NCBI GenBank assembly: GCA_031263585.1
Contig: JAISFN010000082.1
Coordinates: 1-40,831, forward strand
Direction: 5' to 3'
Origin: Prevotellaceae bacterium
Lineage (GTDB): Bacteria; Bacteroidota; Bacteroidia; Bacteroidales; UBA932
DNA: 40,831 nucleotides
A model generated the notes under the pieces. That model did no database searches, was not told where the DNA came from, and worked only from the letters and a program-made list of their open reading frames with translations. This document shows positions 1 through 30,625 of the stretch, piece after piece. Position numbers and translations under genes: made by a program. The stretch's first letter is position 1, and each line of letters starts with the position of its first letter.

Positions 1-117
1 CGTTCCTTCAACAAGCCTATTGTCCAAATAACGAACATTGTCAGGATCGTCCTTATCACAAGAGTAAAATACGAATACAAACAATAATGAATATAATACT
101 AATAATCCTTTTTTCAT
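1..117 (-). CDS. Putative lipoprotein, N-terminal part only (runs off the window)
   Basis: An ATG at 117 on the minus strand opens a frame that stays open to the window edge, giving 39 residues. The start MKKGLLVLYSLLFVFVFYSC is a typical short lipoprotein signal, with the lipobox cysteine at residue 20 followed by an acidic stretch (DKDDPDN). In Bacteroidota, an acidic run after the lipid cysteine is often linked to surface export of lipoproteins. It lies 35 bp downstream of the small gene at 153-353 on the same strand, so the two may be co-transcribed. The mature domain lies outside the window, so no function can be given. Confidence 0.6.
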   Translation of the reverse strand, partial: MKKGLLVLYSLLFVFVFYSCDKDDPDNVRYLDNRLVEGT

Positions 118-10434: not shown

Positions 10435-11025
10435 ATGGCAATTGTTTTAACTAAAGGACAACGAATTGAGATAGGTTTGTCGAAAGTAGGTGTTGGTTTG
10501 GGATGGGATCCCAATGAAGGTACCGGATATGATTTTGATTTGGACGCTTCAGCATTTATGCTTGGAGAAAGCAAAAAATTGCTGAAAGATGAGTACTTCA
10601 TTTTTTACAATAACGTTTGCGGACGTGGACATCAGAGCGAAGAATGTCATTGTGCAGACGGATTGTTCGGAATTAAAAGTTCGGGCGATGACACTACCGG
10701 CGGTAGTAGCGATGGAGACGACGAAACACTGATGGTTGATTTGACTAAAGTCCCGTCGGAAATTCAGGAAATCATTTTCACCGTAACTATCCATGATTAC
10801 GAAGCACGTAAACAGAATTTTGGACAGGTTCGTAACTCATTCATTCGCATTTACAACGCTCAAACAAACGAAGAAATTGCCAAATATGAATTGGATGAGG
10901 ATTTTTCAGTTGAAACAGCCGTTGAATTCGGTCGTTTGTACAAACGCAACAACGAGTGGAAATTCGAAGCAATGGGCATAGGCTATAAAGGCGGATTACA
11001 ATATTTTGTAGACAAATACGTATAA
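10435..11025 (+). CDS. terD: TerD-family protein with a Cys/His insert
   Basis: A cytoplasmic TerD-fold protein of the chemical-stress (tellurite, phage, oxidant) response; family members bind Ca2+ through acidic loops. The 196 residues show the start MAIVLTKGQRIEIGL, then GLGWDP, FDLDASAFML, the acidic SDGDDETLMVDL loop, TVTIHDYEARKQNFGQVRNSFIR, and the end FGRLYKRNNEWKFEAMGIGYKGGL. Compared with the paralogue at 11976-12530, it carries about 17 extra residues after FYNNV. These hold Cys62, His66, Cys71, His72 and Cys73, a possible extra metal site. First gene of the plus-strand Ter block, followed after 140 bp by the TerA-like gene. Confidence 0.93.
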   Translation: MAIVLTKGQRIEIGLSKVGVGLGWDPNEGTGYDFDLDASAFMLGESKKLLKDEYFIFYNNVCGRGHQSEECHCADGLFGIKSSGDDTTGGSSDGDDETLMVDLTKVPSEIQEIIFTVTIHDYEARKQNFGQVRNSFIRIYNAQTNEEIAKYELDEDFSVETAVEFGRLYKRNNEWKFEAMGIGYKGGLQYFVDKYV

Positions 11026-11165: not shown

Positions 11166-11825
11166 ATGGCAATTAATCTGAATAAAATCACCTTGGAAAA
11201 ACAAGGTGACAGTCATAAAATTGACTTAACAAAAGGCGGTAGCGACCTGACAAAAGAAATTATTGTAAACTTAAACTGGTCTCAACCCGAAAAAAAGAAA
11301 GGTTTTTTTGCGAATCTTTTCAGTGGAAACCAGGAAATAGACCTTGATTTAGGTTGTTTTTATGAATTGGCAGACGGACGTAAATCTGTAATCGACGGAT
11401 TACAGTTTGCTCACGGCGTCGGCGGGCCCCGCAATAAACCAACCCGACAAGGCTGTTACATCGAGGCCCCTTGGGTATGGCACTCGGGAGACGATCGTTC
11501 AGGCGCTGGTGAGGGCGAAAATATCCTGGTTAATCCTACAGGTATCGGCGACCTGAAACGTATGATAATCTATTGTTTTATTTATGACGGTGTTGCAAGA
11601 TGGGACTTGTCGAACGGTATTGCAACCGTTAAAGTAACTGGGAACCCCGACATTGTTGTTGAAATGGGTAAACAAACCGATCCCCGTAAATTCTGTGCTG
11701 TTGCAGAGATATTGTTTGATAAAGAATCGATTACCGTAAAAAAACTTGTATCGTTCCACAACGGACACGAAGAGTGCGATAAAGTATACACATGGGGAAT
11801 GAAATGGGAAGCCGGAAGTAAATAA
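11166..11825 (+). CDS. TerA-like TerD-superfamily protein
   Basis: A 219-residue TerD-superfamily protein of the TerA-like branch. It has an N-terminal strand region (KITLEKQGDSHKIDLTKGG), a WSQPEKKKGFFANLF linker, IDLDLGCFYELADG, a distinctive GCYIEAPWVWHSGDDRSGAGEGENILVN acidic loop that replaces the canonical TerD Ca2+ loop, and a C-terminal RKFCAVAEILFDKESITVKKLV / YTWGMKWEAG. Family knowledge suggests TerA-like proteins work with TerD and TerB in a membrane-associated metal-responsive complex. It has no signal peptide. The gene lies between two terD genes on the same strand. Assignment to the TerA rather than the TerZ/TerF branch is by motif memory. Confidence 0.8.
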   Translation: MAINLNKITLEKQGDSHKIDLTKGGSDLTKEIIVNLNWSQPEKKKGFFANLFSGNQEIDLDLGCFYELADGRKSVIDGLQFAHGVGGPRNKPTRQGCYIEAPWVWHSGDDRSGAGEGENILVNPTGIGDLKRMIIYCFIYDGVARWDLSNGIATVKVTGNPDIVVEMGKQTDPRKFCAVAEILFDKESITVKKLVSFHNGHEECDKVYTWGMKWEAGSK

Positions 11826-11975: not shown

Positions 11976-12530
11976 ATGGGAATAAATTTAGAAAAAGGAC
12001 AACGGGTAAGCGTAACTTTACCTAAATTTGTAGTAGGCTTGGGATGGGACACAAACTCATCGTCAACCGGAGATGATTTCGATCTCGATGTTTCGGTTTT
12101 TATTTTGGGCGAAAATAAAAAATTAGTATCCGACGGGCATTTTGTTTTTTACAATAATCTGAAATCGGCCGACGGCTCGGTGGAACATACAGGCGATAAT
12201 CGTACAGGCGAAGGAGATGGCGACGATGAGTCTATAAAAATTGATTTGTCGAAAGCCGATCCAAGGGTTACCGAAATGTGTTTTGTAGTAACCATACACG
12301 AAGCCGAAAACCGCAGGCAAAATTTTGGGCAGGTTCGTAATTCGTTTGTACGCATTTACAACCCCGATACCAACGAAAAAATTTTGGAATATGAGTTGGA
12401 AGAAGATTTTTCGATTGAAACTGCCGTAGAGTTCGGACGTTTATATAAAAAAAACGGAGAGTGGAAGTTTGAAGCCGTTGGCGTTGGTCAAAAAGGCGGA
12501 TTAGCTGATTATTTAAACAAATATAACTAA
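11976..12530 (+). CDS. terD: TerD-family Ca2+-binding stress protein
   Basis: A canonical 184-residue TerD/TerE-type protein: MGINLEKGQRVSVTLPK start, VGLGWDTN, DDFDLDVSVFIL, the classic Ca2+ loop HTGDNRTGEGDGDDESIKIDL, VTIHEAENRRQNFGQVRNSFVRIYN, and the end FGRLYKKNGEWKFEAVGVGQKGGL. Its acidic loop is complete, so Ca2+ binding is likely. It shares long blocks with the protein at 10435-11025, so the two are paralogues. The gene is followed by a broken TerX-like gene. Confidence 0.94.
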   Translation: MGINLEKGQRVSVTLPKFVVGLGWDTNSSSTGDDFDLDVSVFILGENKKLVSDGHFVFYNNLKSADGSVEHTGDNRTGEGDGDDESIKIDLSKADPRVTEMCFVVTIHEAENRRQNFGQVRNSFVRIYNPDTNEKILEYELEEDFSIETAVEFGRLYKKNGEWKFEAVGVGQKGGLADYLNKYN

Positions 12531-15870: not shown

Positions 15871-16506
15871 ATGAGGAGATTACCCGTTTACTTGCTTTTG
15901 GACACATCCGGTTCCATGAAAGGTGAACCGATTGAATCGGTAAAGGTAGGCTTGCAGGCTATGATTGCCAGCTTGCGTCAGGATCCCTTTGCGTTGGAAT
16001 CGGTATACATAAGTATTATTACTTTTAATAGGGAGGTAAAACAGATAATGCCGCTTACCGAACTGGAAAATATGCAATTGCCTGAAATTGTTACACCTGA
16101 GTCGGGGCCTACACATTTAGGTGCGGCGCTCGAAATACTTTGCCAAAAGGTTGATACCGAGGTCAAGCTAAGTACACCCGAACAAAAGGGCGACTGGATG
16201 CCCTTACTGTTTATTATGACAGACGGTAAACCGTCGGATTTACAGAAATATAACGCCATGATACCGGAAATAAAAAAGCGACACTTTGCCGGCATAATTG
16301 CCTGTGCAGCTGGTATAAAAGCCGACCCTAAACCGCTAGAACTGTTAACTCATCAGGTATACTCGCTGGATACGACGGACAGTGCTACGTTTAAGCAATT
16401 TTTCAAATGGGTTTCGGCATCGGTAAGTGTGGGTAACCGCAGTATCGGTGCATCCGACGAGATTATGCTGCCGCCGCCGCCGCCCGAAGTACATTCTGTA
16501 ATATGA
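15871..16506 (+). CDS. terY: TerY-type von Willebrand factor A protein 2
   Basis: A 211-residue paralogue of the preceding gene: MRRLPVYLLLDTSGSMKGEP start, MIDAS residues DTSGSM, a GPTHLGAAL Thr loop and IMTDGKPSD, and the same LPPPPPEVHSVI proline tail. Its stop codon overlaps the ATG of the next gene in ATGA, so translation is probably coupled to the small membrane protein at 16503. Both copies share the extended FFKWVSASVS segment before the tail, which may be the surface that meets the phosphatase or kinase. Confidence 0.92.
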   Translation: MRRLPVYLLLDTSGSMKGEPIESVKVGLQAMIASLRQDPFALESVYISIITFNREVKQIMPLTELENMQLPEIVTPESGPTHLGAALEILCQKVDTEVKLSTPEQKGDWMPLLFIMTDGKPSDLQKYNAMIPEIKKRHFAGIIACAAGIKADPKPLELLTHQVYSLDTTDSATFKQFFKWVSASVSVGNRSIGASDEIMLPPPPPEVHSVI

Positions 16507-16763
16507 TAGCTGTGTTAATTAATATCATAATTCTTCTGGCTATCATCGCTTTGTTTGTTTATTCGAAGCTAACGCCGCATAAAGACAGATTATCCAGTCA
16601 ATACCGAAAAATATTCGATATCTGCGACAAAATATTTAACCCGGTATTGAATTTTTTCCGCAAAATAGCAAAGCCATTGCAAGTTGGCTCCGGCATTGCG
16701 GTCGATATGTCGCAGATTATATTGCTTATGCTACTTTTACTAATATTAGTTGCAAGGTTATGA
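16503..16763 (+). CDS. Small two-helix membrane protein, YggT-like
   Basis: This 86-residue protein has a first membrane helix at about residues 2-20 (AVLINIIILLAIIALFVY), a basic middle (YRKIFDICDKIFNPVLNFFRKIAKPL) and a second helix at about 67-85. The stretch NPVLNFFRKI..PLQVGSGIAVDMSQIILL resembles one half of YggT-family membrane proteins (pattern P-L-x-R...G-x-D-x-S-P-I). It overlaps both neighbours by ATGA, at 16503-16506 and 16760-16763, so it is tightly coupled to two vWA genes. I infer that it anchors the TerY proteins at the inner membrane. Function not known. Confidence 0.85.
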   Translation: MIAVLINIIILLAIIALFVYSKLTPHKDRLSSQYRKIFDICDKIFNPVLNFFRKIAKPLQVGSGIAVDMSQIILLMLLLLILVARL

Positions 16764-21296: not shown

Positions 21297-21668
21297 ATGA
21301 GTAAATTAGACGAATTAAAAAAATCAATTTTAGCTAATGGTGTTATTGATAAAGACGAAATTGCCGAACTTCGCAAAGTTTTATTTGCCGACGGCATTAT
21401 TGATAAAGAAGAGGCCGAATTTGTATTTGAATTGAACGATGCGGTATCGGGTAAAAATAACGATGCCAGCTGGCAAACTTTGTTTGTTGATGCAATATCA
21501 AGCTATTTACTGGAAGATGAAATTTCTCCGGGCGAAATTGATGACGAAGAAGCAAATTGGCTATTGGCCAAAATACAAGGCGATGGTAATTTAGATGCTA
21601 CTGAAAAGGCTTTGTTAGCCAACTTAAAAGCCAAAGCAAAAAATTTTCCTGCCATGCTCAACTTGTAA
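21297..21668 (+). CDS. TerB-like protein
   Basis: A 123-residue soluble acidic protein with repeated DGxIDxxE-type turns: NGVIDKDEIAEL, DGIIDKEEAEFVFEL and GDGNLDATEKALL. This matches the all-helical TerB family, whose conserved acidic residues are thought to bind metal and which act as cytoplasmic partners of membrane Ter proteins. It lies 266 bp after the kinase on the same strand and 129 bp before the Ca2+ ATPase. The assignment is by pattern only; a distant EF-hand-like relationship cannot be excluded. Confidence 0.7.
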   Translation: MSKLDELKKSILANGVIDKDEIAELRKVLFADGIIDKEEAEFVFELNDAVSGKNNDASWQTLFVDAISSYLLEDEISPGEIDDEEANWLLAKIQGDGNLDATEKALLANLKAKAKNFPAMLNL

Positions 21669-21797: not shown

Positions 21798-24725
21798 ATG
21801 GAACAAAAACGACATTATACCGGACTTACTAATGAGCAGGTTTTGGAAAGTAGGAAAAAACATGGAGCCAATATTCTTACTCCTCCCAAGCGGGATCCGC
21901 TATGGAAACTTTTTTTAGAAAAGTTTGAAGACCCTATCATCCGTATATTATTAATTGCAGCTTTCCTTTCGCTGGGTATTGCCATTGTACACCATATAAA
22001 TACAGGTGCAGCCGAGTATGCCGAAACCATCGGTATTTTCTGTGCAATTTTACTTGCCACAGGCGTAGCTTTCTGGTTCGAAATGGATGCCAACAAAAAA
22101 TTCGACATTCTGAACTTGGTGAATGACGATACTATGGTGAAGGTAATCCGTAACAGTAATGTTTGCGAAATTCCGAAAAAAGATGTTGTTGTCGGCGACA
22201 TTGTTTTACTCGAAACCGGAGAAGAAGTTCCAGCTGATGGGGAATTACTTGAAGCCATATCCTTGCAGTTAGACGAATCGACGTTAACTGGGGAGCCAAG
22301 TATCAGTAAAACCACCAATCTGGAATATTTTAACAAAGACGCGACGTACCCCTCGAACTGGGTAATGCGCGGAACAAATGTAATGGATGGGCACGGTGCA
22401 TACGAGGTTAAATTTGTAGGCGATGCTACCGAATATGGTAAAGTTGCCGAAAAATCAACCGAAATGACCGGCGAAGAAACACCTCTGAACCAACAGTTGA
22501 ATGTACTGGCCAAATTTATCGGGGTAGTCGGCTTTTTATTGGCTGCGTTAACTTTCAGCGTATTATTCATACGGGATATTTTCCTCGGCGAAGTGTCTTA
22601 TTCTTTAGGTAAGCTGGGATTAATGGGTGCGGTTATTATAGGCGCCATGCTTGCTCTTATCAAAGTTTGGCTGCCCATTATTTACGATGCATTCGAATTA
22701 CTTAGCAAAAAAAAGAAAGTACCTAAAAGCGTAAGCGAAGGTACATGGTTTAAATGGATTGCCACTGGGGTATTTATTTTTATTTTAATTGCTGCATCGG
22801 GTTTTATTTTCGGTGTAAATCCGCTCGATACAAATTCATGGATATCGATTGATGTCGCCGCCCGTGTATTGCGGTATTTTATGGTAGCTGTTACATTAGT
22901 TGTAGTAGCTGTACCTGAGGGATTACCAATGAGTGTGACCTTGAGCCTGGCGTTGAGCATGCGCCGTATGTTACAAACAAATAACCTTGTGCGCAAAATG
23001 CACGCTTGCGAAACAATGGGCGCTACTACAGTTATTTGTACCGATAAGACAGGTACATTAACCCAAAACCAAATGCAGGTTTACGAAACCCAATTTTACG
23101 GATTGGATAACCAGAAACTTACGGATAACGATATCAGCAATCTGATAAAAGAAAATATATCGGCTAATTCTACGGCTTTTCTGGATTATTCCGACCCTGA
23201 AAAAGTAAAGGCGTTGGGAAATCCTACCGAAGCGGCATTGCTACTTTGGTTAAATGCCAATAAAATAAATTATTTGGAAATACGAGAGCAAGCAAATATT
23301 GTAGAGCAACTTACATTTTCGACTGAACGAAAATACATGGCCACTTTGATTGATTCGCCCTTATTGAAAAAACGGGTACTTTATGTAAAAGGCGCACCCG
23401 AAATTGTATTGTCGAAATGTAAAAATGTATTGGCCAAATCAAATGTGCCGGTATCCGAATATCAGAAAGCTATTGAGAACCAGTTGTTGCAATATCAAAA
23501 CCAAGCGATGCGTATGCTGGGTTTTGCCTTTAAATTTGTTGACAAGGATAATAAACTAGCTGTTCGTGAACTGGTTGAAGAAGGGTTAACGTTTGTAGGT
23601 ATTACAGCGATTTCGGACCCTGTACGGGTAGAAGTCCCTCAAGCTGTTTACAAATGCTTGAATGCCGGTATCGATGTGAAAATAGTTACAGGCGATACTC
23701 CCGGAACAGCCAAAGAAGTTGCCCGCCAAATCGGAATATGGAATGAAAACGACAACTTGCGCAACATATTGACGGGGACTGAATTTGAAGTAATGTCAGA
23801 CGAAGAAGCTTTAAAACGTGTTGATTCTCTGAAAATAATGTGTCGCGCACGGCCTACCGACAAGCAACGGCTTGTACAATTATTACAACAGCACGGAGCA
23901 ATTGTTGCCGTTACTGGAGATGGAACTAACGACGCCCCTGCATTAAATTACGCGCATGTGGGCTTATCAATGGGTTCGGGAACTTCGGTCGCTAAAGAGG
24001 CCAGCGATATTACTTTACTCGATGACTCATTCGGCAGCATAAGTACTGCAATTATGTGGGGACGGTCGCTTTATCAAAATATACAGCGTTTTATTTTATT
24101 CCAGTTAACAATTAACGTGGCTGCTTTAATTATTGTATTTTTAGGTTCGGTTTTCGGGTACGAGTTGCCATTAACCATAACCCAAATGCTTTGGGTTAAC
24201 CTTATTATGGATACATTTGCAGCAGGGGCGCTGGCATCGTTACCACCCGACCCCAATGTTATGAATAAAAAACCGCGCAGAAATAGCGATTTTATTATTA
24301 CTCCGGCTATGCGTTTCAACATCTTATTCGTAGGGCTTACCTTCGTTGTTCTATTGATGGGAATGTTGTTCTTGTTTACGCGCCCCGATTTCCTTGCATG
24401 TTTCTTCTCATATATTCCAGAACCTGAAAGATTTGCCTATTCGCGATCCTACTTCTTTACGGTATTTGTATTATTGCAATTCTGGAATATGTTTAATGCA
24501 AAAGCTTTTTTAACAGGCAAATCGGCCTTTGTAGGCATGAACAAAAGCATAGGCTTTATTATTGTTGCTTTGGTTATCTTAATCGGCCAGTTTTTAATTG
24601 TAGAGTTTGGCGGCGATGTATTCCGTACAGTACCGCATATAGGCAGAGACTGGCTGATAATAATCGGGGCAAGCTCGCTTGTATTATGGATTGGTGAAAT
24701 TGCCCGGCTTATCAGGAGAAAGTAA
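21798..24725 (+). CDS. P-type ATPase, Ca2+-translocating (PMCA/SERCA-like)
   Basis: An integral membrane pump of 975 residues that exports a cation, most likely Ca2+, at the cost of ATP. In order: N-terminal cation ATPase region (GLTNEQVLESRKKHGANIL), the actuator motif LDESTLTGEP, membrane helices including VAVPEGLPMSVTLSLALSM (the PEGL signature of Ca2+ pumps), the phosphorylation site VICTDKTGTLT near residue 415, KGAPEIVLSKC, the hinge VTGDGTNDAPALNYAHVGLSMG, and six C-terminal helices with TITQMLWVNLIMDTFAA. Its position right after the Ter genes and before a strong terminator suggests it belongs to the same transcriptional block and sets the Ca2+ level that TerD proteins would sense. 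Confidence 0.93.
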   Translation: MEQKRHYTGLTNEQVLESRKKHGANILTPPKRDPLWKLFLEKFEDPIIRILLIAAFLSLGIAIVHHINTGAAEYAETIGIFCAILLATGVAFWFEMDANKKFDILNLVNDDTMVKVIRNSNVCEIPKKDVVVGDIVLLETGEEVPADGELLEAISLQLDESTLTGEPSISKTTNLEYFNKDATYPSNWVMRGTNVMDGHGAYEVKFVGDATEYGKVAEKSTEMTGEETPLNQQLNVLAKFIGVVGFLLAALTFSVLFIRDIFLGEVSYSLGKLGLMGAVIIGAMLALIKVWLPIIYDAFELLSKKKKVPKSVSEGTWFKWIATGVFIFILIAASGFIFGVNPLDTNSWISIDVAARVLRYFMVAVTLVVVAVPEGLPMSVTLSLALSMRRMLQTNNLVRKMHACETMGATTVICTDKTGTLTQNQMQVYETQFYGLDNQKLTDNDISNLIKENISANSTAFLDYSDPEKVKALGNPTEAALLLWLNANKINYLEIREQANIVEQLTFSTERKYMATLIDSPLLKKRVLYVKGAPEIVLSKCKNVLAKSNVPVSEYQKAIENQLLQYQNQAMRMLGFAFKFVDKDNKLAVRELVEEGLTFVGITAISDPVRVEVPQAVYKCLNAGIDVKIVTGDTPGTAKEVARQIGIWNENDNLRNILTGTEFEVMSDEEALKRVDSLKIMCRARPTDKQRLVQLLQQHGAIVAVTGDGTNDAPALNYAHVGLSMGSGTSVAKEASDITLLDDSFGSISTAIMWGRSLYQNIQRFILFQLTINVAALIIVFLGSVFGYELPLTITQMLWVNLIMDTFAAGALASLPPDPNVMNKKPRRNSDFIITPAMRFNILFVGLTFVVLLMGMLFLFTRPDFLACFFSYIPEPERFAYSRSYFFTVFVLLQFWNMFNAKAFLTGKSAFVGMNKSIGFIIVALVILIGQFLIVEFGGDVFRTVPHIGRDWLIIIGASSLVLWIGEIARLIRRK

Positions 24726-29713: not shown

Positions 29714-30625
29714 TTATTTCTTTTTGCGGACAACAATCGGCTTAACCCTAAATTCAAACGTCCGGGTTACTATCGTATTAGGCTGATTATTCGAGTATTG
29801 AGTAAGCTTGGTCCAATTCCCGTTACCGTCAAACTCATATTCATAATCAATTTTACGCATAACCTCACCTTTTGAATTTATATATTTTTTCTCGGTCATT
29901 AAATCTTTTTTCTTATCATAAATATACAATATCTGTGTACCATCTGTTAACCTTGTATCTCTGCTTTCTTTGTTTCTGGCTAAATTCCAATCATTTATAA
30001 AATTAGGTAACCACGAATAATCATCAAGATCACCCAGCTCGGTAATTAAATGTTCAATACTTTTACCATCTTTTATATCAAAACTTTTCGATGTTTTTTT
30101 TCCTATTATTCCCCTGTAAATATCCCATACATATCTGTCTAAATTTATAGTTTTACCAGTGGCGCCAACCATCCAATTTTCTTCAACCAGCAATGTATCT
30201 CCAGATCCATATTTCCTTAAATTCACGGTTTTTGCTTTGGCATTACTTTGCGTAATTTTTTTAGCAATCTCATAATTATCATTATCTAATTTATACTGTC
30301 CAACGGTTTCATTGGCAATATTATAATCCCATGTATTGGTATGTAGTTTTTCGCCTGAAGCACTATAAATAATTTCTTTTACTCGATTCCTCAATGTGTC
30401 GAACGATATTTCAACAGCATAATCGGCCAACATATTTGTGCGTACCACTCCGTCGTCATTTCTAATACTGTAAACATTTACCTGCATTTTAGCAACATCA
30501 CCCTCTTTTATATTGTACTGCTGAATATTGTTAACAAACGGAATTTTTTGTGCAAACGAATATCCAGATAATAAACAAATAATAACTATTAAAAATAATT
30601 TTGTGTTAATGTATTTCATTTCCAT
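29714..30625 (-). CDS. Secreted protein of unknown function
   Basis: A 303-residue protein with a signal peptide (residues 1-25, ending GYSFAQ). The ATG at 30619 is an equally good start. The mature part is beta-rich with hydrophilic turns: [45 protein letters not shown] and [17 protein letters not shown]. The last resembles YD/RHS-like strands seen in Bacteroidota secreted proteins. No catalytic motif was recognised. It ends in basic residues (VVRKKK). It has a -7 box at 30663-30670 and probably forms a transcript with panB. Confidence 0.7.

Follow-up and report, generated by a model that had tools for sequence, protein, structure and literature searches.

Why should a gene for a small membrane protein lie between genes for TerY-like vWA proteins? 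The question is raised by the window, a 40,831-nucleotide stretch of DNA from a Prevotellaceae bacterium, which contains a ter cluster with a TerY-P triad, the TerY-like vWA, PP2C and kinase genes standing together (Table 1). Passages of PMC11090510 describe this triad as a TerY-like vWA protein, a PP2C phosphatase and a kinase, hypothesised to form a metal-sensing phosphorylation switch. A hydropathy scan found zero membrane segments in vWA_a, vWA_b, TerY_C, PP2C and the kinase, in agreement with a preliminary description of this DNA, which held that the vWA proteins have no membrane anchor of their own. Among the other members of the cluster, the thioredoxin/redoxin-domain protein had no homologue in the related loci compared, and homologues of the 123-aa protein recur at varying places in the cluster, in one locus (L068) between two vWA genes. 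A kinase of this triad is expected to carry a C-terminal zinc ribbon; in the window kinase, residues 354-384 or so gave only weak matches to YdjO (0.053) and DUF5817 (0.39), which we take to be zinc-ribbon families. When eight cluster proteins were compared with the PADLOC defence models, weak matches were obtained for the kinase only (best PD-T4-6, 7.8e-7, 26.8 bits).

Table 1. Features of the ter cluster in the window, and of related loci where a locus is named
Feature	Position	Strand	Evidence or remark
TerD family protein	10435..11025	+	PF02342 3.8e-65
Divergent TerD-like protein	11166..11825	+	PF02342 0.0014, 18.6 bits, under the Pfam cut-off
TerD family protein	11976..12530	+	PF02342 5.3e-73
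Thioredoxin/redoxin-domain protein, 487 aa	13196-14659		between TerD and vWA genes
vWA_a, first single-domain TerY-like vWA protein, 212 aa	15038..15676	+	Pfam VWA 4.3e-12
vWA_b, single-domain TerY-like vWA protein, 211 aa	15871..16506	+	Pfam VWA 2.2e-12; C-terminal tail LPPPPPEVHSVI
YggT-family membrane protein, 86 aa	16503..16763	+	Pfam YGGT (PF02325), hydropathy, AlphaFold2 model
Parts of the YggT-family protein	residues 2-29; 32-55; 56-72; 69-85		helix; amphipathic helix; conserved loop (KPxQVGxGxAxDMxQ); helix
TerY_C, vWA + TerY-C metal-binding domain, 346 aa	16760..17800	+	PF15616 6.1e-45, VWA 9.5e-12
PP2C-type phosphatase, 561 aa	17805..19490	+	PF13672 5.5e-39; AlphaFold2 model, N-terminal beta-sandwich ~155-240
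Protein kinase-like protein, 498 aa	19534..21030	+	PF00069 2.6e-10; third TerY-P triad member
123-aa protein	21297-21668		very weak TerB match (E 0.048)
P-type cation ATPase	21798..24725	+	PF00689 7e-35, PF00122 3e-33; homologues in several loci, frequent neighbour
ORF between vWA_b and YggT	L050:9023-9481		
ORF between vWA_b and YggT	L051:10013-10501		
ORF between vWA_b and YggT	L052:8903-9394		

The start of the YggT gene shares an ATGA with the stop of the vWA_b gene, and its stop shares an ATGA with the start of the TerY_C gene, so that the double overlap attributed to the 86-residue reading frame and its two vWA neighbours is present in the window DNA. It had also been called the tightest coupling in the window. 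Indeed, no other pair of adjacent genes among those compared there overlaps by 4 nt, an apparent -44 overlap at 29714-29757 being dependent on the chosen start codon, but the double ATGA is not conserved in relatives: among 13 intact loci, the upstream overlap between vWA_b and YggT is found in the window only. The gap from vWA_b to YggT measures -4 to 13 nt in 11 of these loci, with an extra ORF lying between the two genes in the other 2, and the gap from YggT to TerY_C measures -4 to 15 nt in all 10 intact loci with TerY_C (exactly -4 in 4). Of 78 pairs of YggT copies, 25 were usable for dN/dS and the remainder were saturated or failed; the median was 0.16 and the highest value 0.27. Given this median, the 86-aa ORF is a real gene under purifying selection.

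Subsequently, the family of the protein was considered. It matched PF02325 (YGGT) with an E-value of 1e-7 and 32.7 bits against a cut-off of 27, and 12 of the 13 intact subfamily members gave a YGGT match at E<=0.01; NCBIfam returned no match for the window protein. The hydropathy scan placed two hydrophobic segments at residues 1-26 and 61-86. An AlphaFold2 model (pLDDT 80.5, pTM 0.65) found its best solved-structure match in 7xzi_D by Foldseek (TM 0.62, probability 0.77), at an E-value of 1.2 that is not significant taken alone. By VIA, the same chain aligned over 80 residues with an rmsd of 2.8 A and a Z of 9.2, a score that helical models may reach by chance, and the next row stood at Z 5.5. 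A sequence search established that entry 7xzi contains YlmG of the chloroplast TIC complex. The lower VIA matches, to the 1orj flagellar export chaperone (Z 5.5), FliS (4.9) and 14-3-3 proteins (lower), were judged to be common helical arrangements. The subfamily profile had no match among the sequences of solved structures, and the link to YlmG therefore depends on the fold comparison together with Pfam; E. coli YggT itself found among solved structures a single weak chain, the uncharacterized 3rms_A (E 1.5). Pfam and the fold match agree that the protein is a YGGT-family member with a predicted YlmG-like fold, and the YggT kinship proposed in the preliminary description is borne out by the Pfam score over the cut-off and the fold match to YlmG.

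Alignment of the 13 intact copies revealed 20 invariant columns, and conservation is strongest at the helix borders. Mean entropy was 0.48 at residues 56-72 and 0.68 at 20-31, compared with 1.19-1.38 in the other regions. For the stretch 58-72, which was chosen post hoc, the entropy was equalled or undercut by 4 of 20,000 random column sets. Residues 37-54 are strongly amphipathic, with only 2 of 5000 shuffles scoring as high. Furthermore, the central stretch of about residues 21-60 carries a net positive charge in 13 of 13 intact copies, as expected for the cytosolic side of a membrane.

The nearest precedent with experimental support comes from Streptomyces. Passages of PMC4852450 describe SepG (YlmG) as a small two-helix protein of the YggT family whose central domain is cytoplasmic by reporter fusions; in the literature covered, SepG is the only family member for which experiments place the central domain there. 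The same passages describe SsgB as lacking a membrane domain and needing SepG for its localisation, with support from FRET. On the strength of this SepG-SsgB analogy, we consider YggT a candidate anchor of vWA_b or of the triad, and we would give about an even chance to its forming a branch of the YggT (YlmG/SepG) family that has diverged, is specific to ter clusters and serves as the membrane-anchor subunit of the TerY-P phospho-switch. The central part of the protein (about residues 20-72) would then face the cytoplasm, and the conserved strips by the membrane (20-31 and 56-72) would provide a docking site for a cytosolic protein, for which vWA_b or the vWA/PP2C/kinase assembly is the likeliest candidate. 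Docking would bring the switch to the membrane, where the P-type ATPase, TerC or other membrane partners would be nearby, and the close spacing and overlaps of the genes may keep the amounts of the subunits matched. Co-inheritance in one cluster is not direct proof of binding.

The two helices and the strongly conserved loop, whose Asp, Gln and Gly lie at the edge of the membrane, would also suit a small membrane sensor or ion-flux modulator, which would not only anchor the triad but report osmotic or metal stress to it. A cation ATPase or TerC-like gene is often present in the cluster, and in L050-L052 the kinase is followed by a gene that we take to be TerC. E. coli YggT, moreover, is termed osmoregulation-related in a passage of PMC4852450. 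However, the alignment of the 13 intact copies contains no pore-lining or metal-ligand set and no conserved Cys or His, and the ATPase also occurs in a cluster without YggT (L031); we regard a sensor as unlikely. A slightly smaller probability attaches to a role of YggT in the assembly or quality control of one of the system's membrane proteins, either the P-type ATPase or TerC, much as YlmG proteins serve membrane complexes such as TIC or cytochrome b6. YlmG is part of the TIC complex, and CCB3 is implicated in cytochrome b6 maturation in a passage of PMC2923531, whereas the YggT slot lies between the vWA and the TerY_C or PP2C genes, not next to the ATPase or TerC gene, and L031 again has the ATPase without YggT.

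We then determined where relatives of the protein occur. Searching genome contigs with the window protein yielded seven loci, all from Bacteroidales or Bacteroidia records; in all seven, YggT directly follows vWA_b and precedes TerY_C (five) or PP2C (two, L007 and L010). A profile search of 393 genomes of the order gave three strong matches, namely the window genome, G303 and G392, with both new copies in the same slot. The same profile gave four further strong matches in 395 genomes of the phylum, again all in this slot, with YggT preceding PP2C in G674 and TerY_C in G562, G714 and G413. Overall, in 14 of 14 strong loci (13 intact, including the window, and one broken), YggT comes after the second terY-like vWA gene and before TerY_C, or before PP2C where TerY_C is missing. 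This is the opposite of a distribution mostly away from ter genes and bears out the expectation that homologues sit between terY genes. Weak matches were excluded: five in one relative search (E 0.0014-0.0097), five in the search of 393 genomes (E 0.0036-0.0095), where about four are expected by chance, and two in the search of 395 genomes (E 1.8e-4 and 4.7e-4), both with internal stops and, by tblastn, with no ter gene at their loci (L054 and L055).

Within this constant slot, the immediate neighbours vary. In L050-L052, from one genus of the window's class, an ORF of 152-163 aa separates vWA_b from YggT; two of these ORFs were scanned and had no Pfam match over the cut-off. The YggT copy of G413 (L052:9391-9640) is broken by frame changes and stops, and the rest of its cluster looks intact. 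Conversely, YggT is kept and TerY_C is absent in L007, L010 and L049. PF15616 found no match in G674 (88% complete) when run against 395 genomes of the phylum, a sample presumed identical to that of the profile search. In L010, the PP2C reading frame begins with MRRLP (L010:5226-5260), a typical TerY-type start, which would fit loss of TerY_C by deletion from the ancestral order. vWA_b, PP2C and the kinase are present in all YggT clusters with a long enough contig; L009 ends inside TerY_C. An exclusive partnership of YggT with TerY_C is ruled out by the three clusters that have the former without the latter. The preliminary description had called the protein an unexpected partner for TerY, and its fixed place among terY-like genes favours this, but the partner cannot be the TerY_C protein alone, and YggT is optional. 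Taken together, the extra ORF in L050-L052 and the missing TerY_C in three clusters imply that the candidate partner of YggT is not fixed by gene order.

A phage or plasmid origin was considered and rejected. No YggT relative was found in 72,556 plasmid records by single-protein tblastn (E<=1), which is less sensitive than a profile and may have missed distant plasmid copies. TerY-like vWA matches were present in 2317 plasmid records. Viral contigs contained no YggT relative, with 22 stretches matching a pattern and none confirmed.

Next, we quantified how often ter clusters carry the gene. Across 15 genomes with full-length TerY_C, drawn from the order and phylum samples, YggT was intact in 5 (G000, G303, G392, G562 and G714), broken in 1 (G413), absent in 8 (G352, G133, G602, G655, G667, G702, G721 and G733) and undecided in 1 (G239, where only 251 bases of contig precede TerY_C and show no YggT); G178, G201 and G096, 3 of the 9 TerY_C matches of one sample, were left out as partial or weak. 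The Raoultella (L073) and Hymenobacter (L072) plasmid ter clusters likewise have no YggT. YggT is an optional, not a core, part of ter clusters, and its absence in 8 of 15 genomes and breakage in another indicate that the switch can exist without it. On a tree of vWA_b with 22 rows, the YggT label could be explained by 3 changes, where shuffling gave a mean of 6.7 and 2 of 500 shuffles were as low; 7 of the 14 YggT-bearing rows came from the YggT search itself, which biases the proportion. The presence of YggT is clustered on the vWA_b tree, with loss or repeated gain.

The phylum at large provides a background for this pattern. Among 149 genomes of the order, two (the window genome and G026) had a PF02325 match above the cut-off, as did 1 of 75 phylum genomes, the window's own, and 7 of 14 control genomes; G413, the only other strong genome among the 75, had no PF02325 match, its copy being broken. 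The contig that carries the G026 match is 3.8 kb long and has no ter genes; the match is located directly downstream of an ORF that we take to be YlmD-like, and it may be a contaminant. Most sampled Bacteroidota are without a recognised YggT, the ter-linked copy being nearly the only one, with the proviso that the general Pfam YGGT model may miss diverged copies. As most of the phylum has no recognised housekeeping YGGT, the copy in the ter cluster looks kept for the ter cluster. Its optional presence, one broken copy and the insertion of other genes between vWA genes (the 123-aa protein homologue in L068) would suit a neutral or hitch-hiking gene that travels with a modular operon and is not physically connected to the triad. 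This reading is as improbable as an assembly factor against a dN/dS of about 0.16, an identical slot in all 14 loci, which represent different families of the phylum, the retention of YggT where TerY_C is absent and the near lack of any other YGGT gene in the phylum.

Returning to the membrane anchor, we propose tentatively, at somewhat under even confidence, that in one branch of the Bacteroidota ter systems the phospho-switch is bound to the membrane. Here, a dedicated YggT, acquired in a phylum largely without YggT, would dock the vWA/PP2C/kinase proteins through the conserved loop at the membrane border, and TerY-P signalling would start from the membrane, beside the cation ATPase or TerC.

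Two further observations concern the soluble proteins. Both vWA_a and vWA_b end in LPPPPPEVxxV[VI], and PPPP occurs near the C-terminus in 40 of 42 vWA rows from 22 loci, with or without YggT, with a near variant in the other 2; the ter plasmids L072 and L073 together encode four single-domain TerY proteins, all of which carry the same type of tail. By its sequence, this LPPPPPEV-type tail looks like a short C-terminal docking motif, and as it is independent of YggT, it probably serves another partner. In PP2C, a beta-sandwich is predicted ahead of the phosphatase domain, with pLDDT mostly above 85 by block and no name in Pfam; its consensus recalls, in our estimation, Ig-like repeat domains. 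It is speculation from a model that this beta-sandwich is a candidate reader of the PPPP tail.

The YGGT family and the ter cluster are each known, and their combination was not found in the literature searched: no paper joining YggT with tellurium resistance came up in a search that did not extend to the 2012 paper on Ter systems (Anantharaman et al.). In passages of PMC11090510, the metal-sensing TerY-P switch is still called a hypothesis, and whether that switch acts at the membrane can be approached directly through a membrane subunit that is small, dedicated and in part lost. The YggT/YlmG family, about whose roles in bacteria little is known, would also gain a candidate function, and this in a phylum otherwise nearly without YggT.

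Among known systems, the YlmG/SepG/YggT family (PF02325) is the closest to the window protein, sharing one YGGT domain, a pair of helices around a central segment, and the fold match to YlmG of TIC. Housekeeping members of this group are defined by a yggS/yggU or ylmD-F/dcw context, together with GID[FL]SP. The window gene, in contrast, lies in a ter cluster rather than in a yggS-yggT or dcw/ylm context and has DMSQ for DFSP, and on these two grounds we class the ter YggT as a separate branch of the family rather than an orthologue. Relative to E. coli YggT, GIDFSP is replaced by GxGxAxDMxQ with 5 extra residues, and unlike the wider family, the ter subfamily was found here only in Bacteroidota. 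The likeness to SepG, as passages of PMC4852450 present that protein, would by analogy extend to anchoring a soluble partner. With the TerY-P triad and ter clusters, the window shares TerD, vWA, TerY_C, PP2C and kinase genes in one order; it differs by the added YggT gene, whereas in the Raoultella plasmid cluster the second vWA is followed directly by TerY_C. Finally, CoCoNuT type III-A operons, as described in passages of PMC11090510, carry ATPases between duplicated TerY-like vWA genes and so resemble the window in that a pair of TerY-like vWA genes is interrupted by further genes; according to the same passages, however, those inserts are large ATPases and not YggT, and the window has TerD genes.
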